This document shows, piece by piece, positions 3,314-38,049 of a DNA stretch of 64,000 nt. Made by a program: the position numbers and the translations under genes. The stretch's first letter is position 1; each line of letters opens with the position of its first letter. Source of the stretch: a virus. Below the pieces are notes generated by a model. The model ran no database searches. It was not told the DNA's origin and worked only from the letters and a program-made list of their open reading frames with translations. The stretch lies in IMG/VR virus record IMGVR_UViG_3300003872_000001, positions 1-64,000 of that record. One strand, 5' to 3'.

Positions 3314-4780
3314 ATGGTTCATAATAACATTATAGATTTTTATAAAGATGTTGTCCTATCTTTAGGACTAAATGTAACAGATGACGGATTTGTTAAGATA
3401 GATATAGGTAATGGTAAATTAACACCATTAACAATCGGTGGTAAGCCTTTGGTTTTACCGCTTAAGGAACATATTGATACCGTTATAGAACCAAAGTCAA
3501 ATGGTGAATTAGATACAACTAAAGTGATATATAATCCACTAAATGAAGATGTCATTAAGTTAGATTCTATTAGCCTTAGAAAGACTAAAGAGATCATTGA
3601 TAAAAAGCTTGCACATAGTATAGCCGGGTTAGGAGAACTATTATTAAAATTAGCTAGTAACCCAGACTTACAAAAGAAAACTTCTCTAGAGATAAATAAG
3701 TTTTTAGTTACTCTAAAAGAGGCAGACAATCCGGGTATAAAGGATATAGTTAATGATAAAAGTATTGACGCGTGGACTAAGCTTTATGCTAAGTCATTAA
3801 CATCTACAGCTAATGATAAGATATTGAAAATATTCCTTAAAAAAGTAGGTACTTATAAGGGTATTAAATATAACCGACTATGTACAGTATCACTTCCGTT
3901 ATATGAAAAATTATTGGAAGCTAGTCGCGACACACTTGTTAATGGATATAAATTCCGTAGTAAAAAAGATATCACAGTTTTTAGATTAGTCTTCAAGTAT
4001 ATATTCCAAGACCTACTAGATGAGAATAATCTTATAGTTATTGGATCTAATGATCCAGAGTCTCCTGGATTTATAGCACTAATGACAGTGTTTATTAAGG
4101 TAGCTACACGTATTAACAATATTGTTAAATATCTTAAAAATATCGATAAGTCAAGCTACGATTTTATTAAGTTCGACCTTAAAATTACTTTAAAGGAACT
4201 AGGTGAATTAAGTAAATTTAAATCTGAACTAAGCACTATACCTGGTGAACTAACTCTTAATCGTATGAAGACTAAAGCAACACCAGCAACTACACCTACA
4301 CCACAAGTAAAACAGGTAAGTTCTATCGGCGGAATACCATTACCAATAGCAGATAATCAACCTCCGATAGTTAAACAACAACAAGAAGTTGTAAACCCAG
4401 CCGATGTACAACCACCGGAATTAACAACGGAACAGAAGATTTTATATGGTAATAATATGCCGATAATACCAGTACAGTCATCTATGCAACCTCAGGCTAC
4501 TCAACAACAAGTTTACCCACCACAAGGTATGCAACAACCTCAACAAGTAATGCCGCCTATGGGTATAAATAGTATACGACCTATGCAACAAATGCCAATG
4601 CAGCAAATGCCAGCGCAACAGATGCCAATGCAACAAATGCCTATGCAACAGATGCCAATACAGCAGATGCAAATGCAAACACCGCAATATCGCGCTGCAC
4701 AGCAATCATTGATGCAACAAGCTATGCCTCAGTATGGTATGCCGCAATATCCACAACAACCTAATCCATATATGCGTTAA
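3314..4780 (+). CDS. Unknown protein with Gln/Met/Pro-rich repeat tail
   Basis: A 488-residue protein preceded by AAAAGGAATTATT. The first ~320 residues are a mixed Lys/Leu/Asp-rich, mostly helical region with no recognised fold. From about residue 330 it becomes low complexity. Residues ~390-460 hold tandem QQMP-M/A units, visible in DNA at about 4585-4680 as repeated CAACAAATGCC-type units. The gene at 42579 has a similar Gln/Met-rich stretch, but at its amino end. Such tails are usually disordered and may bind partners or vary in length by replication slippage. It is the last gene of the leading operon and ends at the bidirectional hairpin at 4802. Confidence 0.72.
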   Translation: MVHNNIIDFYKDVVLSLGLNVTDDGFVKIDIGNGKLTPLTIGGKPLVLPLKEHIDTVIEPKSNGELDTTKVIYNPLNEDVIKLDSISLRKTKEIIDKKLAHSIAGLGELLLKLASNPDLQKKTSLEINKFLVTLKEADNPGIKDIVNDKSIDAWTKLYAKSLTSTANDKILKIFLKKVGTYKGIKYNRLCTVSLPLYEKLLEASRDTLVNGYKFRSKKDITVFRLVFKYIFQDLLDENNLIVIGSNDPESPGFIALMTVFIKVATRINNIVKYLKNIDKSSYDFIKFDLKITLKELGELSKFKSELSTIPGELTLNRMKTKATPATTPTPQVKQVSSIGGIPLPIADNQPPIVKQQQEVVNPADVQPPELTTEQKILYGNNMPIIPVQSSMQPQATQQQVYPPQGMQQPQQVMPPMGINSIRPMQQMPMQQMPAQQMPMQQMPMQQMPIQQMQMQTPQYRAAQQSLMQQAMPQYGMPQYPQQPNPYMR

Positions 4781-4801
4781 ATATATATGGACTAAATAGC
4801 G

Positions 4802-4836
4802 ATATACTAGTAGTAGCTAAGCTACTACTAGTATAT
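4802..4836. terminator. Bidirectional terminator
   Basis: A perfect 16-bp stem (4802-4817 with 4821-4836) with a TAA loop, followed by a T-rich run. It lies between convergent genes and can serve both. It has the CTAGTAG/CTACTAG core shared by many hairpins in this window. Confidence 0.85.
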
Positions 4837-5583
4837 ATTTTTTTGTTTTTTTAATAGAGTTTCAGTCAATGTTAAATACACTTTTATATATAAGTGAGGT
4901 GCATGTTCCCTTAATTCTTTTAAACCTGTATTTAAAAAACCTTCTTCAAACACTATAGTAGTACCAGGAAGAGCTAAATCTAATATCTTATATAATCCAT
5001 CCAAAACATATTTAGTGTCGCTTATAGTATCCTTAAATGGCGCTATAAAGCCCTTTCTTATATCTTTGCCAACATATAAACTACAAACATTATTAAATAC
5101 TGTTATATTTTTCCTTATATCTTTATGTAGTAAATTAGGTACCACGAATATTTTATTAGGAAACTTCTTAACCATACTAGGAACTATTTTCTTAACTATT
5201 TCTGTATTATTATTTTCTAGAACTAAATCTATATTATGCTCTTGTACATCATAATTATCTTCTCTAAGCTTGTTAGCTATCAAATGTCTGTGGCAAAATG
5301 TTCCAGGTTTACAACTACATAATAAAACTTTATTATTATATTTACGATATAGTTTTTTACTATCTATTTTATCTAGTACTTCTTTTTTAAAAATACTAGT
5401 ATACTCTTCAGTAGTCAATTTACCATTCTTATAATCATATAATAATTTTTCACTAGGGGCTAACCCTAAATCTATATCATCTATATAAGAGTTTGCCCAT
5501 TTAGGAGTATATCTCATTATACTAATTTTCTTATAATCTTCAGGTATCTTCTTTAGATTACCTAAATAACTTGTATATACCAT
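4828..5583 (-). CDS. DUF488-like protein with extra C-terminal domain
   Basis: A 251-residue protein. The first ~115 residues fit the DUF488 family: an amino-terminal YTSYLGN strand, the segment RYTPKWA, and the Cys/His motif CSCKPGTFCHRHLIA at residues 89-103, which matches the family's LL-C-x(6)-C-H-R signature. The family's activity is not established. Residues ~135-250 form a second domain with alternating strands and helices (KIFVVPNLL, LYVGKDIRKGF, TTIVFEEGFL) that could be a nucleotide-binding or nucleoside-processing fold; this is unproven. It is transcribed convergently to the gene ending at 4780 and sits 14 nt after the small gene 5598-5939, so these two form a minus-strand pair. 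Confidence 0.72.
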   Translation of the reverse strand: MVYTSYLGNLKKIPEDYKKISIMRYTPKWANSYIDDIDLGLAPSEKLLYDYKNGKLTTEEYTSIFKKEVLDKIDSKKLYRKYNNKVLLCSCKPGTFCHRHLIANKLREDNYDVQEHNIDLVLENNNTEIVKKIVPSMVKKFPNKIFVVPNLLHKDIRKNITVFNNVCSLYVGKDIRKGFIAPFKDTISDTKYVLDGLYKILDLALPGTTIVFEEGFLNTGLKELREHAPHLYIKVYLTLTETLLKKQKNIY

Positions 5584-6102: not shown

Positions 6103-6450
6103 ATGTACACACCAAAAGAAGATCAAATTGAAGATCCAGTTAATCTTAACTGGGAATTAGGTTTAGATAATATAACTAAGACTATTAATTATATACACGA
6201 TAATCAACACATACATAATAAGATAGATAAGCATAGACTTAACTGGAAATTTTCTGGTTCTAAACTATTTCCTTCTATAACTATATGTGTGTATGAAGTA
6301 GAAATGCTCACACCAGTATATACTGTTAAAAACTCTAATGGTTTTAGACCATTGGTTAAAAATGATTATCCTAATATGATGCAACTTATAGCAGCTATTA
6401 TTAATCAATATGAAAATCACACTAGATTTGAACTCAACGGAGAAAAATAA
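6103..6450 (+). CDS. Small protein of unknown function
   Basis: A 115-residue protein with RBS AAGGAG 7 nt before the ATG. There are no recognised motifs. It contains a beta-type segment LFPSITICVYEVEM and a central HDNQHIHNK stretch. It is first in a three-gene operon (this gene, a P-loop protein, RNA polymerase beta piece) directly behind the promoter motif at 6066. The next gene starts 1 nt after its stop. Confidence 0.7.
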   Translation: MYTPKEDQIEDPVNLNWELGLDNITKTINYIHDNQHIHNKIDKHRLNWKFSGSKLFPSITICVYEVEMLTPVYTVKNSNGFRPLVKNDYPNMMQLIAAIINQYENHTRFELNGEK

Positions 6451-6451
6451 T

Positions 6452-7087
6452 ATGAAAAATTTAATAACATATCAAGAAGACGGATTAACTTATATAGAAG
6501 GCGATCCACATTCAGGTAAAACTACTGAACTTATAAAAGAGTATTTGAAAAATAAAGAATACTCTGTTATGGCATTAACAGAAGAGCTCCCATGCATTAT
6601 AAATGATTTTATTTCAAGTGGTGATCTCGAAGTTAACTGTATGTATAATAAAGAATTAATAATGTTATCTAAAGAAAATTATAAACACAGTATAGACGAA
6701 ATCGTTCACAACTATATGAATCTTAATGGTGTAGCTAATTCTACTAAAATGGGTTTATATCTTTATGTTGATAATCCATCCATAATAAACAATGACTTTA
6801 TTCATTATTTAAAAAAATTAAGTAAGTCATATACTAATTTATATATCACCATAACTAAAAATACTAGTATAGGTAAGAGTAATATATCTCATATATCAGA
6901 TAATGTGCTACCAACTCTTAAACCAAAAAAGCAACGTAAACTCATCATAACTACAGAAATATTACTAACACCTAATGAGGATATTTCTAAAGCTATTGCA
7001 GAATTCAAAGACGATGTTGAGTATAACATATATGGCGAATATGAAGATACTCCTAAAATAACTAACATTACTGAAATAAATGAATAA
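6452..7087 (+). CDS. P-loop NTPase-like protein
   Basis: A 211-residue protein. The frame is open further upstream, but the ATG at 6452 has GGAG 9 nt before it and lies just after the preceding stop. It carries a Walker A motif GDPHSGKTT at about residues 17-25 with a following helix. A candidate Walker B strand is YLYVDNP near residue 105. The rest does not match a known family. It may be a small ATPase that helps replication or transcription. It sits 9 nt before the RNA polymerase beta gene in the same operon, but a functional link is only inferred. Confidence 0.7.
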   Translation: MKNLITYQEDGLTYIEGDPHSGKTTELIKEYLKNKEYSVMALTEELPCIINDFISSGDLEVNCMYNKELIMLSKENYKHSIDEIVHNYMNLNGVANSTKMGLYLYVDNPSIINNDFIHYLKKLSKSYTNLYITITKNTSIGKSNISHISDNVLPTLKPKKQRKLIITTEILLTPNEDISKAIAEFKDDVEYNIYGEYEDTPKITNITEINE

Positions 7088-7096
7088 GGAATCACT

Positions 7097-9226
7097 ATGG
7101 CTAGAATAGATAAAATTTTTACACCAACTCCTGATACTGAGGGACTAGATATCCGTGAAGAGTTATATGGTATACACGCACTAAATCCATTCGCACAATA
7201 TAATAGCTCAGCTCGTCTAGCTATGATGACAAGTCACATTTCACAAATGCTACCGCTAGAAAATGGTGAAGAACCTATTATCCAAACTGGTCTAGAAAAA
7301 CAACTAGGTGAGAACACTTGGTCAGTTAAGATACCTAATGATGCGCGTATAGTGCAAATCATAAGTCGCTACGGTGGTATAGGTGTTAATACAGTTAATT
7401 CCATAACTGAAATTCTAATAGTATATGAAGATTTAGAAACATTAGAATTAGATTTCATCTCAGTTCCACATAGATTCGATCTGCATCCTAACTATGGATT
7501 TAAATATAGATGGAATACTGATATATTAAATAATCTCAGACCGGGATCTATTATAAATAAAAATACTATATTAGCTGATTCTCCTAATGTCAAAGAAGGC
7601 GGAGGATATGGATATGGAATAAATGCTAATGTAGCATTACTCACCATCCCAGAAGTAGCTGAAGATGGTATGGTAATTTCTGAAACTATGTCTAAGAAAC
7701 TTAAACATACAACATTCGAAAAAATAGTTGTAGAATATGGAGTTAATAGTATCCTTCTTAATCTTTATGGTGATGAAACTAATTATAGACCATTTCCAGA
7801 AATAGGAGAATCTATTAAAGATCATTCTATAGTTATAGGTCTACGACGTATAGACCCTAAATTAGCACCAGCTCTATTATCCGTTAAAGATACTATGGAC
7901 TATGATCCTATGTTTGACCGTTGCTATTATGCTAAATATCCGAACGGAATAGTTAGTGATATTAAAGTTTATCACTCTCCTAAATTCAAGAAGAATCTAT
8001 TAGATGGTACTTCTGAAATACCACTTAAATATGCAAATGCACTTACTAATTATTATAAGAAAATAATAGAGGTATATGAGGACGCACAAAAAGAATATTA
8101 TCGTAGATATAAAAGCTGGGATATGAAAACATCTGAAAAGCTTTCTAGATTATTAGTAGAAGCTTACGCATTAACTAATGTTAATAATGATAATATAAAA
8201 AGAACTTTTAAGAAAGATGAATTAGATATCATCAGAGTTGAAATTACTGTAATGCATGAAAAGAAAGTAGTAATCGGAAATAAAATTAGCGATTTATTCG
8301 GAGGAAAAGGAATAGTCACAGCTATATTCCCAGATAATAAAATGCCTAAAGATCCTCATGGCAATCCAGCTGATGTTATTGCTGATCCAACTTCTATATT
8401 TTCTAGAATGAATATCGGTAAATTATATTGGATGTATTTCGGAGGAGTTAGTAGGAAGGTTAAGAATGTAGTAATAGATAAAATATATGAGCTAGAACCA
8501 AATGTTGCACCAGATGTAGCTATCGAATCTATAGCTGAAGAGGAAGTAAATTCTCTTTATAATTATGTATTAGGTTGTATAGGGATTATAGGTACTGAAC
8601 AATTTGATTATTATAGAAATATAACAGATATAAATATACGGATAATGATTCTTAAAGAGATTATAAATAAAGAATTCTATATTAAGTTTTCCGTATCTTC
8701 TAAAAAACTTGCATACCAAGTTGTAGGTGAATTAAGGGATAGTATCTATGCACCTACATTAGTTCCAGTATCGTTTGAATATAATGGTGAAATACGAAAA
8801 ACAAAGCCTATACTCATAGCACCACTATACATTATCTTACTTAATAAAACAGCTGACAACTTCCTATCTACTGCCAGCGCTAAGCTTAATCACTTTAATG
8901 TACCATGTAGCATTTCTAAAGCAGATAAAGCAGTAACTCCTTGGAGGGACAGCCCTACTAAAACCTGGTCTGAAACAGAGCTCAGACTTATGGCAGCTTA
9001 TGGATCGAGAAAAGCAGCGGCAGAGTTCATGAATAGGGCTAGTGATATAAACGCTCATAGGTACCTCTATAGTCATCTGCTGAACGCTGATAAGCCAACG
9101 AACATAGCGAATATTATAAACAGAGATATAGTTCCATATGGTGGAGAAGCTGCACTAAAGCTAATAAACACTATCTTTAACTGTAGTGGAATAACTACTG
9201 AATATGTGGAGGAAGAATTAGACTAA
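7097..9226 (+). CDS. RNA polymerase beta subunit, C-terminal piece
   Basis: A 709-residue protein matching the carboxy-terminal half of bacterial RNA polymerase beta. The key region near residues 390-425 reads KVVIGNKISDLFGGKG, then a VTAIFPDNKMP segment, equivalent to the conserved beta stretch whose two lysines contact the initiating nucleotide and RNA 3' end. A NIGKLYW segment corresponds to the NIGQ(V/L)-type region that follows in beta. The amino-terminal half of beta (lobe and protrusion) is absent, as expected for phiKZ-type phages, which split beta and beta' over several genes. Whether it belongs to the virion or the non-virion enzyme cannot be told here. The partner beta' piece is at 15568. 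RBS AAGGAATC precedes the ATG. Confidence 0.9.
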   Translation: MARIDKIFTPTPDTEGLDIREELYGIHALNPFAQYNSSARLAMMTSHISQMLPLENGEEPIIQTGLEKQLGENTWSVKIPNDARIVQIISRYGGIGVNTVNSITEILIVYEDLETLELDFISVPHRFDLHPNYGFKYRWNTDILNNLRPGSIINKNTILADSPNVKEGGGYGYGINANVALLTIPEVAEDGMVISETMSKKLKHTTFEKIVVEYGVNSILLNLYGDETNYRPFPEIGESIKDHSIVIGLRRIDPKLAPALLSVKDTMDYDPMFDRCYYAKYPNGIVSDIKVYHSPKFKKNLLDGTSEIPLKYANALTNYYKKIIEVYEDAQKEYYRRYKSWDMKTSEKLSRLLVEAYALTNVNNDNIKRTFKKDELDIIRVEITVMHEKKVVIGNKISDLFGGKGIVTAIFPDNKMPKDPHGNPADVIADPTSIFSRMNIGKLYWMYFGGVSRKVKNVVIDKIYELEPNVAPDVAIESIAEEEVNSLYNYVLGCIGIIGTEQFDYYRNITDINIRIMILKEIINKEFYIKFSVSSKKLAYQVVGELRDSIYAPTLVPVSFEYNGEIRKTKPILIAPLYIILLNKTADNFLSTASAKLNHFNVPCSISKADKAVTPWRDSPTKTWSETELRLMAAYGSRKAAAEFMNRASDINAHRYLYSHLLNADKPTNIANIINRDIVPYGGEAALKLINTIFNCSGITTEYVEEELD

Positions 9227-9260: not shown

Positions 9261-9317
9261 TTGGTTGTTTAATCATAATTAAATATATATTGGTTGTTTA
9301 ATCATAATTAAATATAT
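9261..9317 (+). repeat. 28-bp direct repeat, two copies
   Basis: Two exact 28-bp copies (9261-9288 and 9290-9317), beginning TTGGTTGTTTAATC and ending TTAAATATAT, are separated by one base. They lie between the terminator hairpin and the start of the HNH endonuclease gene. They could be a duplication made when that gene arrived, or tandem regulatory sites. Confidence 0.85.
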
Positions 9318-9330
9318 GGAAGGAAATGTA

Positions 9331-10761
9331 ATGAACGATGTTAAAAATATGACAATAGGAGAATCTGTAGGTAAAACTATAGGTAATTTTGATATATTGG
9401 AATCAGTTGGCGGTGGTAAAGTAAGAGCTAAATGTAATTTGTGTGGTAATGAAAATTATACAACTCGTTTCTATAGTATAAAGTCAGGTCATGCTAAAAG
9501 CTGTGGGTGTGTTAAACCAGCTAAATTAAATGTGAATGATCATATAGGTAAGAAATATAATAAACTAACTATACTAGGACCATCTACAGAACGAGATAAG
9601 GACAACAGACCGCTAGTAACAGCTAAATGCGATTGTGGTAATATTAAGAATTTGCGACTATCTGAAATCACTAATGAAAAAGTAAAATCATGTGGTTGTG
9701 GTCATAACAGTACTAATAGTTTAGGCCCTAAAGATGTAATAGGAACTACTATAGGAAATTTTGACATACTAGAAGCAGTTGGTGGCGGTAGAGTAAAAGT
9801 TAAGTGTAATCTATGTGGTAACAAAGAATATGTTACATCACTCTATAAGATACGTTCTGGACATACTAAAAGTTGCGGATGTAAAAAACGTATAGTTAGT
9901 GGTAAACCTTATATCGGTAATACATACAACTGGCTAACTATAATAGATGCCAAAGATGAAAGAGATGAAAATCGCAATCTTCTAGTTACAGCTAAATGTA
10001 AATGCGGTAATGTACGTGATATACCATTGAGTTGGATATTAAGAGGTAAGACTAAATCATGTGGATGTATGGCCAGAAGTAAAGACGGCTATGCGGGAGG
10101 TATACATAAGAGTACATATGATGTATGGCGACAAATGTTAAAAAGATGTATGCAGTCTGGTAAACATGTAACTGATGATCCTAGAATATCATTTGTGAAT
10201 AAAGATGTACCACATGTTCGTTATAATGATTATGGTGCTAGGGGTATAACTGTAGATCCTAAATGGTATGATGTTAAGAAATTTGTAGATTGGTATGAAG
10301 CTAATATTAAAGACGGTGAAACAATGGATAGAATAGATAACGATAAAGGTTACTATTCTGATAATTTAAGATCAGCTACATCTAGTATGCAAAATATGAA
10401 TCAACGTGTTAGGAAAGATAACACATTAGGTTACAAGGGTATAACATATACAGATAGTTCTTATAGATGGGCTATAAAGTTAAATAATAAAACTTACCAA
10501 AGAGAAGGATTTACAACACCTGAGTTAGCATTAGTAGCTAGGAACTTATATATAGTTGAAAACAAGTTACCACATGATATACAAAGTTGTTCATCTTGTA
10601 AAACTATATTGGAATATGATAATAGAATCAATCAGTATGTTTTAGCGGTGATAAAAGATGGTCTTAAACATATAACTATATTTAAGAAAGAAGAGCTTGA
10701 TAATTACAAAAAAGTTCTTGATGGTATGAATAAAATGGAGATTGGTTCTGAGAAAGAATAA
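9331..10761 (+). CDS. Free-standing HNH/AP2 homing-type endonuclease with zinc-ribbon modules
   Basis: A 476-residue protein. The frame is open from 9316, but GGAAGGA six bases before 9331 favours that start. Residues ~1-250 contain four Cys-rich modules in an A-B-A-B pattern (KCNLCGN...KSCGC, then KCDCGN...KSCGC, repeated), likely zinc ribbons that bind DNA. Next is an HNH-type nuclease region with YDVWRQMLKRC, YGARGITVDPKWYD and TMDRIDNDKGYYSDNLR, followed by an AP2-like DNA-binding domain (GYKGITYTDSSYRWAI). This architecture is typical of selfish homing endonucleases in phages. It stands alone between the RNA polymerase and ligase genes and is flanked by a short direct repeat, consistent with insertion. 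It may help mobilise the group I introns found elsewhere. Confidence 0.85.
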   Translation: MNDVKNMTIGESVGKTIGNFDILESVGGGKVRAKCNLCGNENYTTRFYSIKSGHAKSCGCVKPAKLNVNDHIGKKYNKLTILGPSTERDKDNRPLVTAKCDCGNIKNLRLSEITNEKVKSCGCGHNSTNSLGPKDVIGTTIGNFDILEAVGGGRVKVKCNLCGNKEYVTSLYKIRSGHTKSCGCKKRIVSGKPYIGNTYNWLTIIDAKDERDENRNLLVTAKCKCGNVRDIPLSWILRGKTKSCGCMARSKDGYAGGIHKSTYDVWRQMLKRCMQSGKHVTDDPRISFVNKDVPHVRYNDYGARGITVDPKWYDVKKFVDWYEANIKDGETMDRIDNDKGYYSDNLRSATSSMQNMNQRVRKDNTLGYKGITYTDSSYRWAIKLNNKTYQREGFTTPELALVARNLYIVENKLPHDIQSCSSCKTILEYDNRINQYVLAVIKDGLKHITIFKKEELDNYKKVLDGMNKMEIGSEKE

Positions 10762-12974: not shown

Positions 12975-12992
12975 CATATGCTATAACTCTCT
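12963..12992. terminator. Bidirectional terminator
   Basis: A perfect 13-bp stem (12963-12975 with 12980-12992, loop ATAT) between the convergent ligase operon and the histidine kinase gene. It overlaps the stop codons of both. Neither side has a long T run. Confidence 0.7.
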
Positions 12993-14262
12993 AATCTTCT
13001 ACATAATGCTTAAACTTATCATAACGTATTTTAACTTCAAATATAGTACCTTTTTTTATTTTTGTCCAGATTAATTTATCTGTACCATGGTACTTTTCTA
13101 ATATCATTCTATTGATATACATACCGACTCCGCGTTCATAACTTGATACATCAGTTTTAGTAGTGATGTTGATATTGAATATTTTATTTTTAACATAATC
13201 TGGAATACCGTCACCATTATCTATAATTTGAATATATAGATATTTTTCATCTTTATTAGCTAGTTTAAATTCTAATTTAGTACTATGCGCATCAATACTA
13301 TTTTTAATATGATTAATGATGATATTACTAAAAGAACCATTAGTTAAACCTTCATCGTGATAAATAGAATATTTATTAAATTCATCATCAATGACCAGAT
13401 TACTTATAGAATAGTCATTACTTATTTTAACTATATTAATGCTAGATTGTAATAACATATAAACACTTTTATTACCATTACTATTTTCAATACTTTTAAA
13501 ATCACCTATTGGTCTTACAATACCATATACATTATCTAATGCAGTTTCAGCATCTAGAATATCGTCTTTTATTTCACTTAAGCAAGATTGAGTTTTGCTA
13601 AAACAAGTATTTAAACAAGTCGCATTCATAGATATATCTTTATTTAAGATATACTTCATATCGTCTAATAATGACTTAATAACTAATAACGGACTATTGA
13701 GTTCATGATTAATATTAAGTGCTATATTGGTAATTATATCATGCCTTAAATATTCTTCTTTATTATTAATCGAAGATAGATATCCTTTTCTTTCAATAAT
13801 TAATATATGTTCAATAACTAATGTAGTTACTATGAACATCATAATGAAATATAAAAGACTATATAATAATATATATAGATTGTTTTTAATAATAGGAACA
13901 TAAAAATAATATCCATTTACATCTAGTGGAATGTAAATAACATAATGGTCAATAATATAATGTGGGAATTTCCTATAATGTACACTATTATCATATATAT
14001 TAATTAAGTATCCTTGATCTTTACTACCTTGTTTAAATTTGAACATATATTTTGCACCTACTGAGTAACAATACTTATTCATATCAATTTTTTTATCATA
14101 TGTTAATAGTGTATTCAATGTTAGTTCAGTGGTTTTTTCATTAGCATGGAATACTAAAATTATACTTATAATAAATCCAGTAAGGATAAATAGAATGAGT
14201 AAACTACTATATGTTAATGGAACTTTATATTTACGTATAAGATGTCTATAATAAAGCTTCAT
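12991..14262 (-). CDS. Membrane sensor histidine kinase, phage-encoded
   Basis: A 423-residue protein. Two membrane helices at residues ~19-39 and ~129-153 flank an ~90-residue extracytoplasmic loop that could sense a signal. The cytoplasmic part has a dimerisation/phosphoacceptor helix with the H-box NHELNSPL (His186). It is followed by a GHKL ATPase domain: N-box NHIKNSIDA (317-325), G1 box DNGDGIPD (348-355) and G2 box RGVGMYI (377-383). All catalytic motifs look intact. In the known family, such kinases autophosphorylate the His and pass phosphate to a receiver aspartate. Its start overlaps the end of the receiver gene by 17 nt, which strongly suggests they work as a pair. Complete sensor kinases are rare in phages. 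Confidence 0.9.
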   Translation of the reverse strand: MKLYYRHLIRKYKVPLTYSSLLILFILTGFIISIILVFHANEKTTELTLNTLLTYDKKIDMNKYCYSVGAKYMFKFKQGSKDQGYLINIYDNSVHYRKFPHYIIDHYVIYIPLDVNGYYFYVPIIKNNLYILLYSLLYFIMMFIVTTLVIEHILIIERKGYLSSINNKEEYLRHDIITNIALNINHELNSPLLVIKSLLDDMKYILNKDISMNATCLNTCFSKTQSCLSEIKDDILDAETALDNVYGIVRPIGDFKSIENSNGNKSVYMLLQSSINIVKISNDYSISNLVIDDEFNKYSIYHDEGLTNGSFSNIIINHIKNSIDAHSTKLEFKLANKDEKYLYIQIIDNGDGIPDYVKNKIFNINITTKTDVSSYERGVGMYINRMILEKYHGTDKLIWTKIKKGTIFEVKIRYDKFKHYVED

Positions 14263-14812
14263 AGCGTGTCCCCTTAAAAAGATCTTTTAGTAATCCAATA
14301 TTAGTGCTTATTGGAGTATCTTTATAAACTACATGGTCTATAAGATCATCATCACTTATTTCATTATAGCATTTATAAAGCCCGCTAGCTGTGTCCCTAG
14401 ACAGCACATGCCCGGTGATGAATAGATATATTAAATCATGATTAATCTTATGTAGAATATTAGTCAAAATGATACCATTAAAGCCATGTAAAGAGTTGTC
14501 GCTACTTACATAATTACTACCATAAGTAATATCAGCTATAACAATATCGATACTTAAACCATCATTTATATATAGTTCTTTAACTATATCTATGCCGGCA
14601 GTATTACCACCTGAGTATACTATATTAAAATGTTTATCAACATTGTAGCGGATTATCAATTTTTTAAATAATTTAATTATGGAGTTGTAATCATCCACAA
14701 TCAATATAGTAGGTTTATCTTTATCGTAGTTAGATGGTAACTTTGCAGGAGTTACAGTTTTTAGGAAATCAGGCGATATAACATTCTCAATTATATATTG
14801 TGTATTTTTCAT
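14246..14812 (-). CDS. Receiver-domain response regulator without output domain
   Basis: A 188-residue protein. After an ~33-residue lead it has a receiver domain: strand 1 with the acidic pair ILIVDD (Asp40, Asp41), the phosphoacceptor in IVIADI (Asp94), the conserved Thr in LFITGH (Thr133), and a Lys at 164 (VVYKDTP). These are the residues needed for phosphorylation and switching. No DNA-binding or enzymatic output domain follows. It is therefore like CheY/Spo0F-type proteins, acting by protein contact or as a relay. It lies between the one-TM protein gene (2-nt gap) and the kinase gene (overlap), all read on the minus strand. Confidence 0.87.
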   Translation of the reverse strand: MKNTQYIIENVISPDFLKTVTPAKLPSNYDKDKPTILIVDDYNSIIKLFKKLIIRYNVDKHFNIVYSGGNTAGIDIVKELYINDGLSIDIVIADITYGSNYVSSDNSLHGFNGIILTNILHKINHDLIYLFITGHVLSRDTASGLYKCYNEISDDDLIDHVVYKDTPISTNIGLLKDLFKGTRYEALL

Positions 14813-14814
14813 TA

Positions 14815-15393
14815 TTATCTTTCTCCTTTTCCGGTATGTATATTTAAATTTTTAGCTACAGTAGAAACTGTTTTATCAGTAGCTACTAGTGCGCTATTAT
14901 CTACTTCATGTATAGTAGACAGCACTAATATTAATATCAGTATCCACATGATCGAATTCGAGACTGCACCACTTGGCACGATGTTAGGTAGTAGGGTATC
15001 TTTTATAAAACTTTTACTAGATGCAGTATCAGCATCAGTTGTTTTTTCCGTTTCTATATTAAATGTTTTGATTATACTTTCTACATGTTTAACACTAAGT
15101 AATATATGATCTAATATTTTTATCATTTCACCGTCTTGTATCTTTGTTGTGGTAATCTTCTGTGTTTCCATATTGCTTAATATTAATGTAAGATATTCTA
15201 TTGCATTTTGCATATTGTTATCTTCAAATTCTAAATTATCTAGATTATTTATTAATTTATCGTTTATATTATTTTTAGAATTATCTTCAGTTATAGAATT
15301 GATGGCATGTTTTAGTCTAGTTTTATCTTCAAGTACTTTTTCTATTAGATCTTCTAAAGAATTAATTAATATATGGTTTATATCGTCAGTCAT
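14815..15393 (-). CDS. One-TM helical protein, first gene of the two-component operon
   Basis: A 192-residue protein. Residues ~1-130 are acidic, helical and probably coiled-coil (SLEDLIEKVLEDKTRLKHAIN, NLDNLEFEDNNMQNAIEYL). One membrane helix follows at about residues 147-162 (SNSIMWILILILVLSTI), then a short tail of ~30 residues. No enzyme motif is seen. It is translated just before the receiver and kinase genes, so it may be an accessory membrane partner or signal input. The function is inferred from context only. Confidence 0.72.
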   Translation of the reverse strand: MTDDINHILINSLEDLIEKVLEDKTRLKHAINSITEDNSKNNINDKLINNLDNLEFEDNNMQNAIEYLTLILSNMETQKITTTKIQDGEMIKILDHILLSVKHVESIIKTFNIETEKTTDADTASSKSFIKDTLLPNIVPSGAVSNSIMWILILILVLSTIHEVDNSALVATDKTVSTVAKNLNIHTGKGER

Positions 15394-15460
15394 AGTAGCC
15401 CCTTAAATAAGTTCAGTATCAAGAAAATAGTGACATATAATATATGTATAGATCCCTAAT

Positions 15461-15499
15461 TGACTTTGCGCTAAAGTCAAATATATAATATTAAAATAG
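15461..15499 (+). promoter_or_regulatory. Candidate phage promoter with dyad, before beta' gene
   Basis: TATATAATATTAAAATAG at 15482-15499 is preceded by a perfect 7-bp dyad, TGACTTT and AAAGTCA around GCGCT, at 15461-15479. It lies 68 nt before the RNA polymerase beta' start. Confidence 0.62.
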
Positions 15500-15567
15500 A
15501 AGCGTAGAAAAATCATATATGTTACTATATAATGATGTGACGTGTATACAATAATTAAGGATTTCAA

Positions 15568-17616
15568 ATGAGTACTAAAATACAAGCGATACCAGTAAGA
15601 GAGTTTTTAAAATTAGAACCACAAGAATTATTAAGTGGATTGAAGTCTTCTAAGGTAGTTCTTTTTGAAGATAATGTTATAGCAACTATGAGCGCAAATG
15701 AAGTAGTTGTTAATAGATATTTATGGGAAGTTTACAACTTAATACCAGAATTACCATTAGTGTCTAAATATAATATTACTAACTATTATACAAATGGAAT
15801 CTTTTCTTCTAAGAGTATTAATAAATTATTTGCAGTTATACTAGAAGACATGTTTAAAAAGATACTCATACCGTCTAAGGACACATCTTATAAAAGTCTT
15901 ATTTATAAACAAATGTACATCATTAACAACAGGATATATAATGAAATAGTTTATGCTAACTTGCATTATGCATCAAGTATAAATATATTGGATTTATTAG
16001 ATATACAACTTAATACTAAATTGATTACAGCTATGCAACATGTAGCAGAAGTAGAAACACCTGAGTCTATAGAAGAAACTTATAGAATCTTAGATGAAAT
16101 AATGTATGATGATGAGACTGTACGGAAAAGTACAGTAGCTAGGAGTTATGTATCTGGACAGATAAATACAAATCAAGCTAAACAAGTATTAGCCTCCAGA
16201 GGATTTGTAGCTGAGATAGATGGTAGTATTTTCTCTAAACCTATAGCAGCTTCATATACATTGGGTCTTACTAATATGTATGATGTCGGGGTAGAGTCTA
16301 GACCTGCGTCTAAAGCACTTTTTCTAGCAGATAGGGCTATTCAAGATAGTGAGTATTTTTCTAGAGAATTACAATTAGTTTGTATGGAAGTAGAAAGCAT
16401 CGTGGAAGGAGACTGTGGCAATACGACATTGACTGAATGGAGAGTTAGAAGTGCTGATGAAACAATTTCTGGTAAATCTGATCTTAATAACCTTATAGGT
16501 AAACATTTCTTAGATGAAAATACTAACCAAATGAGTATTATTACGAAAGATATGACAGATCTAATAGGAAAGACAATAAAAATAAGATCAGTTATCCATT
16601 GTAAACATCGTAATAAACATAAAGTTTGTTCTGCTTGTTTTGGAGAATTAACACATAGTCTTTTTAAACATACCAACCTAGGTCATATAGCGGCAGGTAC
16701 ACTAACTCAAAAATTAACTCAATCGATCTTATCTACTAAACACCTAACTGGAAGTGCACACGGTGGTACTATCTCGTTAGATGCAATGGCTGCTAGATTC
16801 TTTGTAGTTAAGAATAAAGATGGTTATGCATTTAAACAGGGAATAATTAATAAAGATGTTAAGGTAAATATGATCATAAATCAAACTGATGTATTTGGGT
16901 TTAAACAGTTAATGTCAGGAACAGATATGACTAAATTAGATCCATCTAGAATATCTAGAATATCTAGTATAGTCTTAAGTATAGAACGTAAAGGTAAGAT
17001 AGAATATTTTCCTATCATTATCAAAGATGGTAATAAATATGGAAGCTTTACGTATAAGTTCTTAGAGTATATTATAAAAACTGGGTATGATGTAGATAAC
17101 CAAGATAGATATGTTATCAATTTAGATAAATGGAAATCTAATGTACCTATATTGAAACTTCCACAGATTGAATTTAGTTTCATAGTTCTAGCTAACAAGA
17201 TTAAATCCATGCTTAAAAGTATGAAGGTTGTTAAAGGTACATATAGTCTAGAGACACAAGAAAGTTTACTACAAAAATTATTCGATACAATCAATAGTAA
17301 ATTAGATATAAATATCGCACTTTTAGAGATTATAGTTTATGCATTTACAATCAGTAGTATAGTTGAAAGAGATTATACTTTAGGTAGATTTTCTGAAGAT
17401 AAACAATTGGCGGGTATCATGGATTGTGTGAGTAATAGAAGCCTAGGCTCAGGCTATGCATATCAACGCGTTCCTAAACAAATCTTAGACCCACACTCAT
17501 TTTCTAAAAGAAAACGATCAGATCATCTACTAGATGTAGTAGTTAAACCAAATGAAACATTATTAGATTACTATGGAGGTCTCACTAATACAGAAATAGT
17601 ACCTAAACATATTTAA
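15568..17616 (+). CDS. RNA polymerase beta' subunit, C-terminal piece
   Basis: A 682-residue protein matching the carboxy-terminal half of bacterial beta'. Near residues 350-400 it has a degenerate zinc-ribbon-like CKHRNKHKVCSACFGEL. This is followed by LGHIAAGTLTQKLTQSI and LSTKHLTGSAHGG, corresponding to the G-x-A-x-G-I-I-A-A-Q-S trigger-loop region and the HTGG motif of beta'. The Mg-binding NADFDGD motif lies in the amino-terminal half of beta' and is not here, so another gene outside the window should supply it. This split is known for phiKZ-type polymerases. A final segment LGSGYAYQRVPKQILDPHSF may mark the protein end. RBS AAGGA precedes the ATG. Confidence 0.88.
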   Translation: MSTKIQAIPVREFLKLEPQELLSGLKSSKVVLFEDNVIATMSANEVVVNRYLWEVYNLIPELPLVSKYNITNYYTNGIFSSKSINKLFAVILEDMFKKILIPSKDTSYKSLIYKQMYIINNRIYNEIVYANLHYASSINILDLLDIQLNTKLITAMQHVAEVETPESIEETYRILDEIMYDDETVRKSTVARSYVSGQINTNQAKQVLASRGFVAEIDGSIFSKPIAASYTLGLTNMYDVGVESRPASKALFLADRAIQDSEYFSRELQLVCMEVESIVEGDCGNTTLTEWRVRSADETISGKSDLNNLIGKHFLDENTNQMSIITKDMTDLIGKTIKIRSVIHCKHRNKHKVCSACFGELTHSLFKHTNLGHIAAGTLTQKLTQSILSTKHLTGSAHGGTISLDAMAARFFVVKNKDGYAFKQGIINKDVKVNMIINQTDVFGFKQLMSGTDMTKLDPSRISRISSIVLSIERKGKIEYFPIIIKDGNKYGSFTYKFLEYIIKTGYDVDNQDRYVINLDKWKSNVPILKLPQIEFSFIVLANKIKSMLKSMKVVKGTYSLETQESLLQKLFDTINSKLDINIALLEIIVYAFTISSIVERDYTLGRFSEDKQLAGIMDCVSNRSLGSGYAYQRVPKQILDPHSFSKRKRSDHLLDVVVKPNETLLDYYGGLTNTEIVPKHI

Positions 17617-20466: not shown

Positions 20467-23274
20467 ATGATTGCGTTAAAAGATAATTCTACATACATAG
20501 AAAAAATTACATTACAAAATTCAGCAGATACAGATTGGGTATCAGTAGATAATACTACTGTTGGGTATACACCTAAAGAGTTAGGTGTGTTATCTACTAG
20601 CACTACTAGTAGTTTAAAAGTAACTACAGCGTTAGTAGACAGAGTGCCTGCAGCTAGTGATAAATTATTAGCTATAGATGCTAATAACACTATAACTGAA
20701 ATAGTAGCAGGTACAGTTACTGATGATGGACCTACTATTAAACAATTAAATAGTTTCCAATCTACTGGGGTGACTAGTGGTGATGCTTTTGGTGTAAGTA
20801 TGTCTATATCATCAGATGGTCTGATATGTATAGTTGGTGCCGTGGGTATATCTTCTAGAGCTGGTAAAGCTTATACATTCACAAGAGCTACTATTTCTGA
20901 TACTTGGACTGAACAAAATAGTTTTGTAGCTAATGGTTTAGGATCTGGTGATGAATTTGGTATAGGTGTGTCATTATCCCCAGATGGGTTAATATGTATG
21001 GTTGGTGCTCGAGGAGCGTCTTCTAATACTGGTAAAGTTTATACATTCACAAGAGCTACTACTTCTGATGCTTGGACAGAACAGAATAGTTTTATAAGTA
21101 GTAGTACTGTAAGCGGCGATTATTTTGGTTGTAGTGTGTCTATATCGTCAGATGGGTTAATATGTATAGTTGGTGCTTATAGAGTATCTTCTTATACTGG
21201 TAGAGCTTATACATTCACAAGAGCTACTACTTCTGATACTTGGACTGAACAGAATAGTTTTGTAAGTAGTAGTAGTGTAAATGGTGATAATTTTGGTACA
21301 GGTGTAACATTATCAGTAGATGGGTTAATGTGTGTAGTTGGTGCTATGGGAGTATCTTCAGTTACTGGTAAAGCTTATACATTCACAAGAGCTACTACTT
21401 CTGATGCTTGGACTGAACAGAATAGTTTTGCAGCTAGTGGTTTAGGATCTAATGATAATTTTGGTGCATCAGTAGGTATGTCTGGTAATGGACTAGTTTG
21501 TATAGTTGGTGCATATGAAATATCTTCTAGACAGGGAGCTGCTTATATATTTAAAAGAGCTACTACTAGTGATACTTGGACTCAAGTTCATGAGATAACT
21601 GACCCAGGAGCTACTGGTAATGATCTTTTTGGTTTTGGTTGTTCTATAATACAAGATGGAACTATAGCGTTAGTAGGTACATGGGCTAATAATAACAGTA
21701 CAACTACAGCTAATAAAGTATATACATTCGACGTAAATGAATCTTATTCTATAGATACATCTGGTGCTAATTTAACTACTGTACCAACTAAAGTATTTTA
21801 TAATGATAATGTAGATGTTAGTGTATGTTTAGAAGCTACTAAAGATAGAATATCTTCTTTAGAAAGAACATTAACTAAAGTTTCTTCAACAACTACTCAA
21901 TTTGTAGGTAATCTTCCAGGAACTCAAAATGTAGCATTAGCTACTGGTGATACTGTTGTTATAGACGGAGCTAATGTTGCTCTTACTAGTACAACAACTA
22001 CTGGTATTGGAGTGTTAGATTTAACTAATCCAATATTAGTAAATAGTTTCCAATCTACTGGAGTAACTGGTACTGATGGTTTTGGAGCTAGTACATCTAT
22101 ATCATCAGATGGGTTAATATGTATAGTTGGTGCCCCGGGAGTATCTTCCTATACTGGTAAAGCTTATACATTTACAAGAGCTACTACTTCTGATACTTGG
22201 ACTGAACAGAATAGTTTTGCAGCTAGTGGTTTAGGGTCTAAGGATCGTTTTGGCCAGGGTATTTCATTATCTTCAAACGGGTTAATATGTATAGTAGGTG
22301 CTACCGGCATATCTTCTGGTACTGGTAGAGCTTATACATTCATAAGAGCTACTACTTCTGATGCTTGGACAGAGCAGAATAGTTTTGTAAGTAGTAGTAC
22401 TGTAAGTGGTGATGGTTTTGGTTCAGATATATCACTATCATCAGATAGTCTAATATGTATGGTTAGTGCATATAATGTATCTTCTGGTACAGGTAGAGCT
22501 TATACATTTACAAGAGCTACTACTTCTGATGCTTGGGCTGAACAGAATAGTTTTGTAAGTAGTAGTACTGTAGCTGGCGATGCTTTTGGTGTAGGAGTAG
22601 CATTATCACCAGATGGACTAATGTGTATAGTTGGCGCTTCTAATGTATCTTCTGGTACTGGTAGAGTTTATACATTTACAAGAGCTACTACTTCTGATGC
22701 TTGGGCTGAACAAAATAGTTTTGTAGCTAGTGGTTTGGGATCTAATAGTGATTTCGGTAGATCAGTAGGTATGTCTGGTAATGGACTAGTTTGTATAGTT
22801 GGTGCATACGGAGTATCTTCTGGTCAAGGAGCTGCTTATATATTTAAAAGAGCTACTACTAGTGATACATGGACTCAAGTTCATGAGATAACTGACCCAG
22901 GAACTACTGCTAACGATCAATTTGGTACTAATTGTTCTATAACACAAGATGGTACTATAGCATTAGTAGGTACATGGGCTACTAATAATAGCACAACTAC
23001 ATCTAATAAAGTATATACATTTAAACTTGGTGATCCATTTACACAGTATACTTTAGGATTTAGTGCCTTATCTACTGCACCTGCGACTGCTCTTATCCCA
23101 GATAGATCAGTTAAACTCACTAAGTCTTCCAGGCTTTATGATGGTACTAAATTCACTATTACATTTAGTAACTATAATAAACAAGGTAGAGCTGTACAAC
23201 GTAAAATAGTTGCTGCAAGAAAAGATACTACTGTTTTAGAACCGTTAACATCTGATCTTAATAAATTAGCATAA
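20467..23274 (+). CDS. FG-GAP-like repeat protein, putative tail fibre or adhesin
   Basis: A 935-residue protein dominated by repeats of the form NSF-x(3)-x-V/L-GDxFG-x(5)-SxDGLxCxVGA-x-VSSxTGKAYTF-TRATTSDxWTEQ. There are two blocks of six repeats (roughly residues 95-415 and 525-845), each opening NSFQSTGVT and closing VHEITDPG. A ~110-residue linker separates them. The repeats resemble FG-GAP/integrin-type beta-propeller blades, so two six-bladed propellers are a reasonable inference. The amino-terminal ~90 residues may anchor to the tail, and the last ~80 form a different domain. A receptor-binding role is inferred from family behaviour and from position among fibre genes. RBS AATAAGGA precedes the ATG. 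Confidence 0.78.
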   Translation: MIALKDNSTYIEKITLQNSADTDWVSVDNTTVGYTPKELGVLSTSTTSSLKVTTALVDRVPAASDKLLAIDANNTITEIVAGTVTDDGPTIKQLNSFQSTGVTSGDAFGVSMSISSDGLICIVGAVGISSRAGKAYTFTRATISDTWTEQNSFVANGLGSGDEFGIGVSLSPDGLICMVGARGASSNTGKVYTFTRATTSDAWTEQNSFISSSTVSGDYFGCSVSISSDGLICIVGAYRVSSYTGRAYTFTRATTSDTWTEQNSFVSSSSVNGDNFGTGVTLSVDGLMCVVGAMGVSSVTGKAYTFTRATTSDAWTEQNSFAASGLGSNDNFGASVGMSGNGLVCIVGAYEISSRQGAAYIFKRATTSDTWTQVHEITDPGATGNDLFGFGCSIIQDGTIALVGTWANNNSTTTANKVYTFDVNESYSIDTSGANLTTVPTKVFYNDNVDVSVCLEATKDRISSLERTLTKVSSTTTQFVGNLPGTQNVALATGDTVVIDGANVALTSTTTTGIGVLDLTNPILVNSFQSTGVTGTDGFGASTSISSDGLICIVGAPGVSSYTGKAYTFTRATTSDTWTEQNSFAASGLGSKDRFGQGISLSSNGLICIVGATGISSGTGRAYTFIRATTSDAWTEQNSFVSSSTVSGDGFGSDISLSSDSLICMVSAYNVSSGTGRAYTFTRATTSDAWAEQNSFVSSSTVAGDAFGVGVALSPDGLMCIVGASNVSSGTGRVYTFTRATTSDAWAEQNSFVASGLGSNSDFGRSVGMSGNGLVCIVGAYGVSSGQGAAYIFKRATTSDTWTQVHEITDPGTTANDQFGTNCSITQDGTIALVGTWATNNSTTTSNKVYTFKLGDPFTQYTLGFSALSTAPATALIPDRSVKLTKSSRLYDGTKFTITFSNYNKQGRAVQRKIVAARKDTTVLEPLTSDLNKLA
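20748..23020 (+). repeat. Internal DNA repeats encoding propeller blades
   Basis: The coding repeats are conserved at DNA level, for example the unit ACTTCTGATACTTGGACTGA occurs many times. The block from 20748 is repeated from about 22043 in the same blade order. This suggests a recent duplication of a six-blade module, and it may support recombination that changes blade number. Confidence 0.8.
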
Positions 23275-32483: not shown

Positions 32484-33008
32484 CTAAACCCTTTTCATCC
32501 ATCCACTAAAGAATTTTTCTTGTTTAGGATTTCTTTTTACGATATTATAATATCGCATAAACTGTAATCCACTAATTACTTTTAGTAAAGATGGTTTATC
32601 ATAACTTTCCAATGAATGTAAAGCTTTTAAGGTAGTGGGACCCGCAAAGCTATCTACTGTCATATCAGGAAATAATTTCTGATTTCTATTCATTAGGTTT
32701 AAAGCTTCTTGTAAAAACTCTGCAGCAGACCCTACACCTTGGTTAACAGCTGAATCAAACAATTCTATAGCTAATTTATTACTAAACTCACCAATTGTAG
32801 TTAAGTTCATATGTTTAGTATTCCAATAATTATCATAATATATTTTCTTAGCGTCAGCTAATGTTAAATTTTTAATATCTAAATTTGGATAATCCGCTTT
32901 AGCTATTCCATATTTTGTTTCGCCGCCTGGGTCAGTTGGGTCATTTACATAACCACCTTCAAATCCTATTATTACCCCAAATGCTTGGTTGTATAATTCT
33001 GAATCCAT
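32484..33008 (-). CDS. Endolysin, GH108 lysozyme-like muramidase
   Basis: A 174-residue protein. It has the GH108 (secretion-activator) signature GFEGGYVNDPTDPGGETKYGI at residues 15-35, with the likely catalytic glutamate Glu17. A central KIYYDNYW segment and a carboxy-terminal peptidoglycan-binding part (DSFAGPTTLKAL) complete the family architecture and usual length. There is no signal peptide or SAR helix, so it would need a holin to reach the wall. It cleaves peptidoglycan of Gram-negative hosts at lysis. It is transcribed away from the holin/spanin cluster at 24344-25367, on the opposite strand and about 7 kb away. Confidence 0.9.
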   Translation of the reverse strand: MDSELYNQAFGVIIGFEGGYVNDPTDPGGETKYGIAKADYPNLDIKNLTLADAKKIYYDNYWNTKHMNLTTIGEFSNKLAIELFDSAVNQGVGSAAEFLQEALNLMNRNQKLFPDMTVDSFAGPTTLKALHSLESYDKPSLLKVISGLQFMRYYNIVKRNPKQEKFFSGWMKRV

Positions 33009-35847: not shown

Positions 35848-35865
35848 AAAGTGAGGAATCAGAAT

Positions 35866-38049
35866 ATGGCTGGTAAAAAGAAAATAGTCAAGGATTTGTT
35901 AGATACTCTAACATTAAATATTGGTGACGAAGGTCTAAATAAAAGAAAAGAGTTAACAAACTTTGTAATCTCTAATGAAGATATGGATTCAGCATCACGT
36001 GAGTCAGCTACAGTTGTGCTTGATAAACTACAAGATACTGTTAGCAGAACTTTAAGCGCTGTATTGTCACAAGAAGATATGGACGCATCTCAGTTTACAG
36101 AAGCACAATTTAATGCCGCAAACCAAATCGCTGCATTGGCATTAAATCCAAAAATTGCATTAGATGCATTTCGTAACCCAAAATCTGTTGATGTTAAAGG
36201 ACCACATAGTGTAATTGGCGCTGACGTTCTAGGTGTAGAAGATATACTACTAGGTGATCAATTGTCTTCTGAAGGTTATGATGGTGAAGCTACAAACAAT
36301 GCTATATATTTTTCAATTGTATCTAACTTCATGTCAGCAACACAAGATAAATTTGGTGAAGCATTTTTCCCAACTATTAGTATGGACCCAACTGTTTCAG
36401 GTGCAACTATTGAATGTGAATTTACTTCAATTTATAAAGAAATAGCTAGAAAAACTGATGGTTCATCTAGTATGAAAGATTTCGATAAAACTCCTATCGT
36501 AAAAGCAATCTTTGATAATAAACTATTCGGTAATGATAAAAATAGACTCATTCCAGTTGTAAGAAAGAATAACAGTTCAGTGCTTTTAGCTGACGTTTAC
36601 TCATTTGTAGAGTATAATGGCTCTGAAGATGTAACTACTGCTCCTTTAGCATTTGGTAAAACTATTGGTCTACTAGGTATTTCTCAAACTGACGCACAAC
36701 TTGCTAAAGGTGTTATGGATAATACTGATGCACTAGACAGAACTCTTAACTTAGAGAATATCTATTATTCACTAACTGGTACTGACTCAGCTGGAAAAAC
36801 TGTAACTGAAAACTTTATGGCTAATATATCTATATTACCACATAGTAACTTTACTTATAGCCCACAAGCACATGCAAAATCATTAGGATTAACTTTTTCT
36901 AGCGATGCTATTGCAATAGGAACTAGTACTAAAACTACTGTAACAGGTGCAGCTTCTGCTATATTATCACAACTCCCTGCTGGTCACACTATACAAATGC
37001 AAACAGTATTACATGGTGATGGCGATACTCAATCTGGTGATATTGCTGTTTATGCTTCTGAAATGAAAGTTGCTGCAATCTTGGATTCTGCAGGTAATGT
37101 ACTACCAACAACAAGTGCTGATTATGTAACTATTGAGAAAGTAATGTCAACTGTTAAACTTCTAGGTTATACTGTTGAAGCATATAGCACTAACTCTAAC
37201 CTTAGAAAACGTGGACAGCTTGTTACAACTGACCGTTATATTCAAATTTATAATGTTCCACTAAGAACAGGTGTTACTGTACTTGCTCCAGTTAACTCTA
37301 TGTCTGGTACTGATAATGATGCAGCTAGATTAACTAGTCAAATTACATATGCTGGTATAAGAACTTCTGTTGATGCAGTTAAAGCACTTGTTAACCATGC
37401 TGATATGTTGAATAACATAACTAATAATGGTGTTCCAGTTACAGCTGATCTAATGGGTGTTGGTAGATTCTATGTTGATACATATTACAATGAACTTAAC
37501 ATCGCAATTGATACTCATGTTGATTCTATTAAATCAAAAGATAGACTTGCTGACATTAGAGCTCTTTTAGTTAACAAAATTAAAAATGAAACAGTTAATA
37601 TGGCTATTAAAGCAAATTACTATATTGCTAATGTTGTCCTTAATGGAGCTAATAATGGTAAAATACAAGTTATCATAGGTACTGACCCGATTATAGGTTC
37701 ATACTTAACTGAAAATGGCGAAGGTGTTATTGACCTAGGACCTGACTATGAAGGCATTGTTGTTACTACACCTAATAAACTTATCCGTGGTTCAATCTTT
37801 GTATCATTTGGTATATTTGATGCAAATAGAAACACTAAAGCTAACCCATTGAACTTTGGTCAATGTTTCCGATCACCATCAATCACTACTGATGTTGTAA
37901 GAACATTAAGCGGATCTACTTCACGTGAATTAACATCTATGAATAGATATCTTCATGTTATTAACCTTCCACTTATGTTTAGACTAAACATTACTGGTAT
38001 CGCTACAGCACTAGAAAAAGTTGCAGTAGATTTTCGTACTGTAAAATAA
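35866..38049 (+). CDS. Major capsid protein (phiKZ gp120-like)
   Basis: A 727-residue protein. The frame is open from GTG 35851, but that codon lies inside the ribosome binding site (GTGAGGA) for ATG 35866. It resembles phiKZ-type major capsid proteins in length (~750 for phiKZ) and in the segment GEAFFPTISMDPTVSGATIE at residues ~165-184, typical of the capsid N-arm/E-loop region. It also has long Ser/Thr/Ala-rich beta stretches. The amino-terminal ~90-120 residues are charged and helical and may be removed by the head protease during maturation. Codon use is even and CA/CT-rich, consistent with very high expression. The hairpin at 38073 follows. Confidence 0.82.
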   Translation: MAGKKKIVKDLLDTLTLNIGDEGLNKRKELTNFVISNEDMDSASRESATVVLDKLQDTVSRTLSAVLSQEDMDASQFTEAQFNAANQIAALALNPKIALDAFRNPKSVDVKGPHSVIGADVLGVEDILLGDQLSSEGYDGEATNNAIYFSIVSNFMSATQDKFGEAFFPTISMDPTVSGATIECEFTSIYKEIARKTDGSSSMKDFDKTPIVKAIFDNKLFGNDKNRLIPVVRKNNSSVLLADVYSFVEYNGSEDVTTAPLAFGKTIGLLGISQTDAQLAKGVMDNTDALDRTLNLENIYYSLTGTDSAGKTVTENFMANISILPHSNFTYSPQAHAKSLGLTFSSDAIAIGTSTKTTVTGAASAILSQLPAGHTIQMQTVLHGDGDTQSGDIAVYASEMKVAAILDSAGNVLPTTSADYVTIEKVMSTVKLLGYTVEAYSTNSNLRKRGQLVTTDRYIQIYNVPLRTGVTVLAPVNSMSGTDNDAARLTSQITYAGIRTSVDAVKALVNHADMLNNITNNGVPVTADLMGVGRFYVDTYYNELNIAIDTHVDSIKSKDRLADIRALLVNKIKNETVNMAIKANYYIANVVLNGANNGKIQVIIGTDPIIGSYLTENGEGVIDLGPDYEGIVVTTPNKLIRGSIFVSFGIFDANRNTKANPLNFGQCFRSPSITTDVVRTLSGSTSRELTSMNRYLHVINLPLMFRLNITGIATALEKVAVDFRTVK

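Follow-up and report, generated by a model that had tools for sequence, protein, structure and literature searches.

The infection programme of lytic phages is commonly regarded as fixed, and a locus that encodes a sensor histidine kinase next to a receiver raises the question of whether a phage carries a two-component system of its own, and for what purpose. The locus examined here lies in a window of 64,000 nucleotides (the whole stretch of DNA analysed) taken from IMG/VR record IMGVR_UViG_3300003872_000001, a virus contig of 107,322 bp. Genes for RNA polymerase (RNAP) beta (7097-9226), beta' (15568-17616) and a phiKZ-type major head protein (35851-38049) were found in the window and, together with other core genes, place the record with the phiKZ-like phages. 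An earlier reading made from the sequence alone had called this a jumbo phage, a label that agrees with the size of its relatives (225-322 kb), although the record itself is a fragment.

The open reading frame (ORF) list gives three minus-strand ORFs of 192, 188 and 423 aa in the cassette, bearing out the coordinates and strand of the three coupled genes that the sequence-only reading had described (Table 1). The receiver and kinase frames overlap, likely resulting in translational coupling, and in most relatives this junction is likewise an overlap or gap of a few nucleotides. A putative cassette promoter probably lies in the divergent intergenic stretch that separates these genes from beta'.

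Table 1 Coordinates of the cassette and its features in the window
Feature	Position	Strand	Basis
Two-TM sensor histidine kinase, 423 aa	12991..14262	-	PF02518, HK853 match
Putative phospho-acceptor His186 of kinase	13705..13707	-	Invariant, 16 homologues
Extracytoplasmic sensor loop of kinase, ~residues 39-130	13873..14148	-	Hydropathy
Receiver/kinase frame overlap, 17 nt	14246..14262	-	From coordinates
Stand-alone receiver, 188 aa, without output domain	14246..14812	-	Conserved residues, profile
Putative phospho-acceptor Asp94 of receiver	14531..14533	-	Invariant in 14 homologues
Tail-anchored helical partner, 192 aa	14815..15393	-	ORF, hydropathy, AF2
Partner TM helix, residues 143-161	14911..14967	-	Hydropathy
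Divergent intergenic region, cassette versus RNAP beta' gene	15394..15567		Sequence read

The kinase scores 45.0 bits against Pfam HATPase_c (PF02518, cut-off 26.4), a profile that also matches all 16 kinase homologues. Residues 177-415 align with the DHp and CA domains of HK853 (PDB 4jas, E 2e-8), and the predicted model (pLDDT 75) matches HK853 and many other kinases. The H (NINHELNSP, His186), N (NHIKNS, Asn317), G1 (DNGDGI) and G2 (RGVGM) boxes are intact, and hydropathy places two transmembrane (TM) helices near residues 20-38 and 131-149, as had been claimed. Of the three Pfam profiles that the sequence-only reading had suggested searching, HATPase_c lies above its cut-off, HisKA finds no match in the window kinase (4 of 16 homologues match, best 7e-5) and Response_reg remains below its cut-off. 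Searching NCBIfam with the kinase returned only generic kinase matches, all far under their cut-offs. A family motif, YSNGNKxxYD, sits between DHp and CA. The sensor loop was modelled by AF2 at low confidence as a helix (61-68) and five strands; most relatives have a CxxxxC motif in this loop, which the window kinase lacks, and two relatives have a loop of only ~30 residues. One relative (G002/L014, kinase at L014:5521-6729) has no G1 box owing to an apparent in-frame deletion, and its kinase may therefore not bind ATP, or the assembly may be faulty.

The receiver is more divergent, reaching E 0.016 and 15.8 bits against PF00072, under the 30.2-bit gathering score, and the profile matches 5 of 14 receiver homologues (best E 0.007). 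In an alignment of these 14 homologues D40, D41 and D94 are invariant, T133 is conserved in >90% and K164 in most, all in register, which upholds the residues named in the sequence-only reading and its statement that an output domain is missing. A profile built from the homologues and compared with the PDB gave 15 matches, all of them CheY-type receivers (best E 0.027). After the phospho-Asp the receiver has DITxGG, at the position where usual receivers have MPxxxG. Many receivers start with an amphipathic segment, e.g. MxxFxKxLFKK, and N-termini across the family are amphipathic, with a mean moment of 0.53 versus 0.35 for 219 other ORFs (P=2e-7), a control set that includes some spurious ORFs; that of the window receiver is weakly so (moment 0.42). 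In one relative the kinase is followed directly by two more CheY-like receivers (L050:5084-5491 and 4687-5118), the first of which, at 38 bits, is above the Pfam cut-off.

The first gene has one TM helix, as previously read, and it is C-terminal (143-161). The predicted layout is of cytoplasmic helices, the TM helix and a short extracytoplasmic tail; AF2 gives helices at 2-123 and 143-186 (pLDDT 60), and this low-confidence model had no match in the PDB. The basic flank preceding the TM helix indicates an N-in/C-out orientation in most members. A histidine phosphotransfer (HPt) role was considered and rejected, as homologues share no conserved His. Taken with receivers that lack output domains and have amphipathic N-termini, this orientation suggests signalling confined to the membrane. 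The proposal that the receiver acts by protein contact fits the missing output domain, the amphipathic N-termini in many relatives and the tail-anchored neighbour.

We considered whether the cassette could be host DNA, either captured recently by accident and without a phage-specific role, or misassembled into the contig. Its GC content is 23-29% compared with 28-33% for most flanks, and this greater AT-richness is what such an origin would have in its favour. The cassette lies, however, between the beta and beta' genes of a phiKZ-like phage, and a sister phage (L031/L054) whose beta' is 65% identical carries it at the same site, with cassette proteins 39-42% identical to those of the window. 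Misassembly is rejected on this basis, and the cassette is better regarded as an old resident of the lineage than as misjoined host DNA, in line with the original description of it as phage-borne. Gene order is moreover conserved in 29 viral contigs, and a cellular cassette was not found in 84,980 genomes at ~50% sensitivity (see below), leaving a recent accidental origin barely credible.

In FLC9 and pEa_SNUABM_54 the beta and beta' genes adjoin. In the sister phage the cassette alone separates them, and in the window the cassette shares the interval with an HNH gene, an NAD-dependent ligase and a 74-aa ORF. The HNH endonuclease gene (9316-10761, between RNAP beta and the ligase) is missing from this site in the sister phage and so probably arrived later as a mobile insertion. 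The gene next to RNAP beta on its upstream side (6410-7087) codes for a 225-aa protein with a weak match to the PlyG cell-wall-binding domain (E 8e-5, below cut-off). The 935-aa product of 20467-23274 has ten FG-GAP_2 repeats and is probably a surface or tail protein with a beta-propeller fold. The sister phage encodes a GGDEF (diguanylate cyclase) domain protein near its RNAP beta gene (L054:2873-3400; PF00990, E 3e-11). That the window and the sister phage both have the cassette between beta and beta' would suit a receiver that contacts the phage's own multisubunit RNAP to control transcription. We consider this decidedly improbable: in other lineages the cassette adjoins lysis, tail or neck genes, many of the relatives' receivers look membrane-bound, and the partner, nearly constant in the family, is itself a membrane protein.

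Single-sequence searches recovered no family member, whether by tblastn against 50,697 GenBank phage records or against the viral contigs, and the family is consequently visible only through back-translated motifs. In IMG/VR one member came from a DNA search pattern encoding NINHELN[ST]P, another from an alignment of the pair, and the remainder from motif scans. Each of the 23 stretches that fit the pattern HHE[LMI][NK]xP carries the kinase; four motif-scan loci (L021, L023, L033 and L041) had no kinase and were discarded as chance matches. The kinase family comprises 29 viral contigs (the window and 28 others) of 10-273 kb, with exactly one copy per contig. In 27 of the 29 the receiver is immediately upstream of the kinase on the same strand, the exceptions being G027, where the copy is cut by the end of the contig, and G015, which has none adjacent. 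Of these 27 contigs, 26 have the partner directly upstream of the receiver, 25 by profile and one (G020) by position and a TM helix. This order recurs in most of the 28 other viral contigs and is therefore more than chance; a search for the same triplet in other phages, which the sequence-only reading had advised for jumbo phages, thus succeeded. That reading had also judged an intact pair in such a genome unusual; the pair is a genuine phage kinase and receiver, but it belongs to a cassette family with a partner and is no isolated oddity. Two contigs have an extra protein between receiver and kinase (L027:5840-6451 and L046:1365-1961) with a TM-periplasmic-TM layout, which by eye resembles a Cache-type sensor.

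The three core genes co-diverge (Mantel r=0.83 for kinase and receiver, 0.77 for kinase and partner, 0.76 for receiver and partner; P=2e-4), as expected of one functional unit. Adjoining and co-diverging, the kinase and receiver qualify as a predicted cognate two-component system. The phages that carry it differ in type, including T4-like, phiKZ-like and others: T4-like gp23 was above cut-off in seven contigs, and the window has a phiKZ-type head protein. A HATPase_c search of seven phiKZ-like reference genomes gave no match at all. Stand-alone receivers are often shuttles or sinks, and the kinase or receiver might instead cross-talk with host two-component systems as a phosphate donor or sink, rewiring envelope stress responses or behaviour; the two additional CheY-like receivers beside one cassette (L050) would fit such a role. 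The tight co-divergence of kinase, receiver and partner and the family-specific nature of the partner argue rather for a closed circuit, and the cassette occurs across unrelated phages with presumably unrelated hosts, making a takeover of host signalling improbable.

Two kinase motifs were scanned in 84,980 bacterial and archaeal genomes with a sensitivity of ~50%, as 14 of the 29 viral members carry them. The one confirmed match (L036) was a generic cyanobacterial kinase of other architecture without a cassette, and was rejected as a family member, as were plasmid matches, also generic kinases. The two-component cassette is a conserved phage family, apparently phage-specific at the sensitivity tested.

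Some cassettes extend beyond the core genes. A small secreted protein that carries a [KR][ST]xxGWxR motif is encoded 3' of the kinase in 13 contigs, and 10 contigs additionally encode a barrel-like protein of 360-420 aa with an aromatic last residue; the window cassette has neither. These extended cassettes, and a partner with a single TM helix at the inner membrane, would be compatible with superinfection exclusion or envelope defence, in which an incoming phage is sensed, the partner blocks DNA entry and the barrel replaces or masks a receptor. Yet the barrel is missing from most copies, including that of the window, and the recurrent neighbours are lysis rather than exclusion genes, so we regard this as unlikely.

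Lysis genes neighbour the cassette in several relatives. A GH108 endolysin and a GTA-type holin adjoin the triplet in L034, and L022 has the same layout; holin-like and Rz/Rz1-like spanin genes are directly upstream of the cassette in L032, and downstream of it in L029 are a holin-like gene, two spanin-like genes and an M15 endolysin. An M15 endolysin also lies upstream, within 2 kb of the cassette, in L027 and L050, and in L044 holin- and spanin-like genes adjoin it in divergent orientation, judged from reading the sequence only. Overall, an endolysin was within 3 kb of the cassette in 5 of 12 contigs versus 0.76 expected (P=4e-4, or P = 0.004 after dropping one of two related contigs), values that are optimistic, and suggestive rather than conclusive, since the endolysin families were picked after adjacency had been seen. 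Endolysins of the PF00959 and PF01510 families were not found in the cassette-bearing contigs. The linkage to holin, endolysin or spanin genes is absent at the window cassette, which is 17 kb from a GH108 endolysin (32484-33008); the endolysin of the sister phage is 9 kb away, and in G009, G021 and G024 the detected endolysin is >80 kb distant. Among the outputs first suggested (lysis timing, host signalling or phage gene expression), the context in several relatives thus favours lysis over the other two, although the window itself, with its distant endolysin, does not share that context.

The reading we tentatively favour, at a little under an even chance, is an envelope-sensing phosphorelay in which the target of the receiver is the tail-anchored partner at the inner membrane, most likely tuning lysis. 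The cassette would be a dedicated phage two-component module operating at the host inner membrane during infection. An extracytoplasmic condition would be sensed by the two-TM kinase through its ~90-residue loop, probably fed in many relatives by the secreted protein and in some by an outer-membrane barrel. The kinase would autophosphorylate on His186 and pass the phosphate to Asp94 of the receiver, which, having no DNA-binding or enzymatic output, would remain on the membrane side and switch the partner encoded upstream of it by contact. Holin-driven lysis would be delayed or released when the envelope reports superinfection or damage. The biochemical logic of the cassette is well supported by its predicted domains and conserved residues; we infer phosphotransfer, the contact between receiver and partner, the signal and the lysis output. 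For the output, lysis timing would be our preference, with exclusion second. A broader possibility, which we hold to be somewhat unlikely, is that barrel, secreted protein, kinase, membrane-bound receiver and tail-anchored effector make up a phage-only envelope-spanning system by which lytic phages of several lineages time lysis by an external signal, amounting to lysis inhibition by phosphorelay or to virus-virus sensing.

Thermotoga HK853-RR468 also pairs a kinase with two TM helices with a receiver lacking an output domain. The window kinase has the same DHp and CA architecture and H, N, G1 and G2 boxes, whereas the cassette differs in being phage-encoded and in its near-constant tail-anchored partner, the YSNGNKxxYD motif and the receiver DITxGG. 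The nearest precedent for a phage-borne kinase is Clostridium difficile phage phiCDHM1, which carries the histidine kinase gene agrC with agrB and agrD, and in which no response regulator was found; its agr locus adjoins the endolysin gene and its genes derive from host loci (PMC3901668). Both phages thus have a histidine kinase, in phiCDHM1 with an endolysin gene nearby, but here the kinase comes with a receiver and a membrane partner as part of a phage-specific set. In T4 lysis inhibition, the RI antiholin binds the T holin directly in the periplasm without a phosphorelay (PMC8385771, PMC11413866). The role proposed here, adjusting lysis to an envelope or superinfection signal, would be shared with T4, while the chemistry would differ from that of the RI/T system. 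Divergent receiver domains of jumbo phages have been described as cREC, which is reported never to be linked to histidine kinases and to be linked instead to NAD/ADPr enzymes (PMC7824862); in contrast, all 27 contigs with the receiver described here have a kinase next to it. In the openly accessible papers that our survey covered, no report of a phage-encoded two-component pair turned up. The exceptions to a fixed programme known to us, T-even lysis inhibition, arbitrium and borrowed agr genes, use other chemistry or have no receiver. If our interpretation is correct, a conserved phage-only set of kinase, receiver and effector in unrelated phage lineages would mean that bacterial viruses maintain their own true environmental sensing, and the trigger of lysis timing would be open to standard two-component biochemistry.
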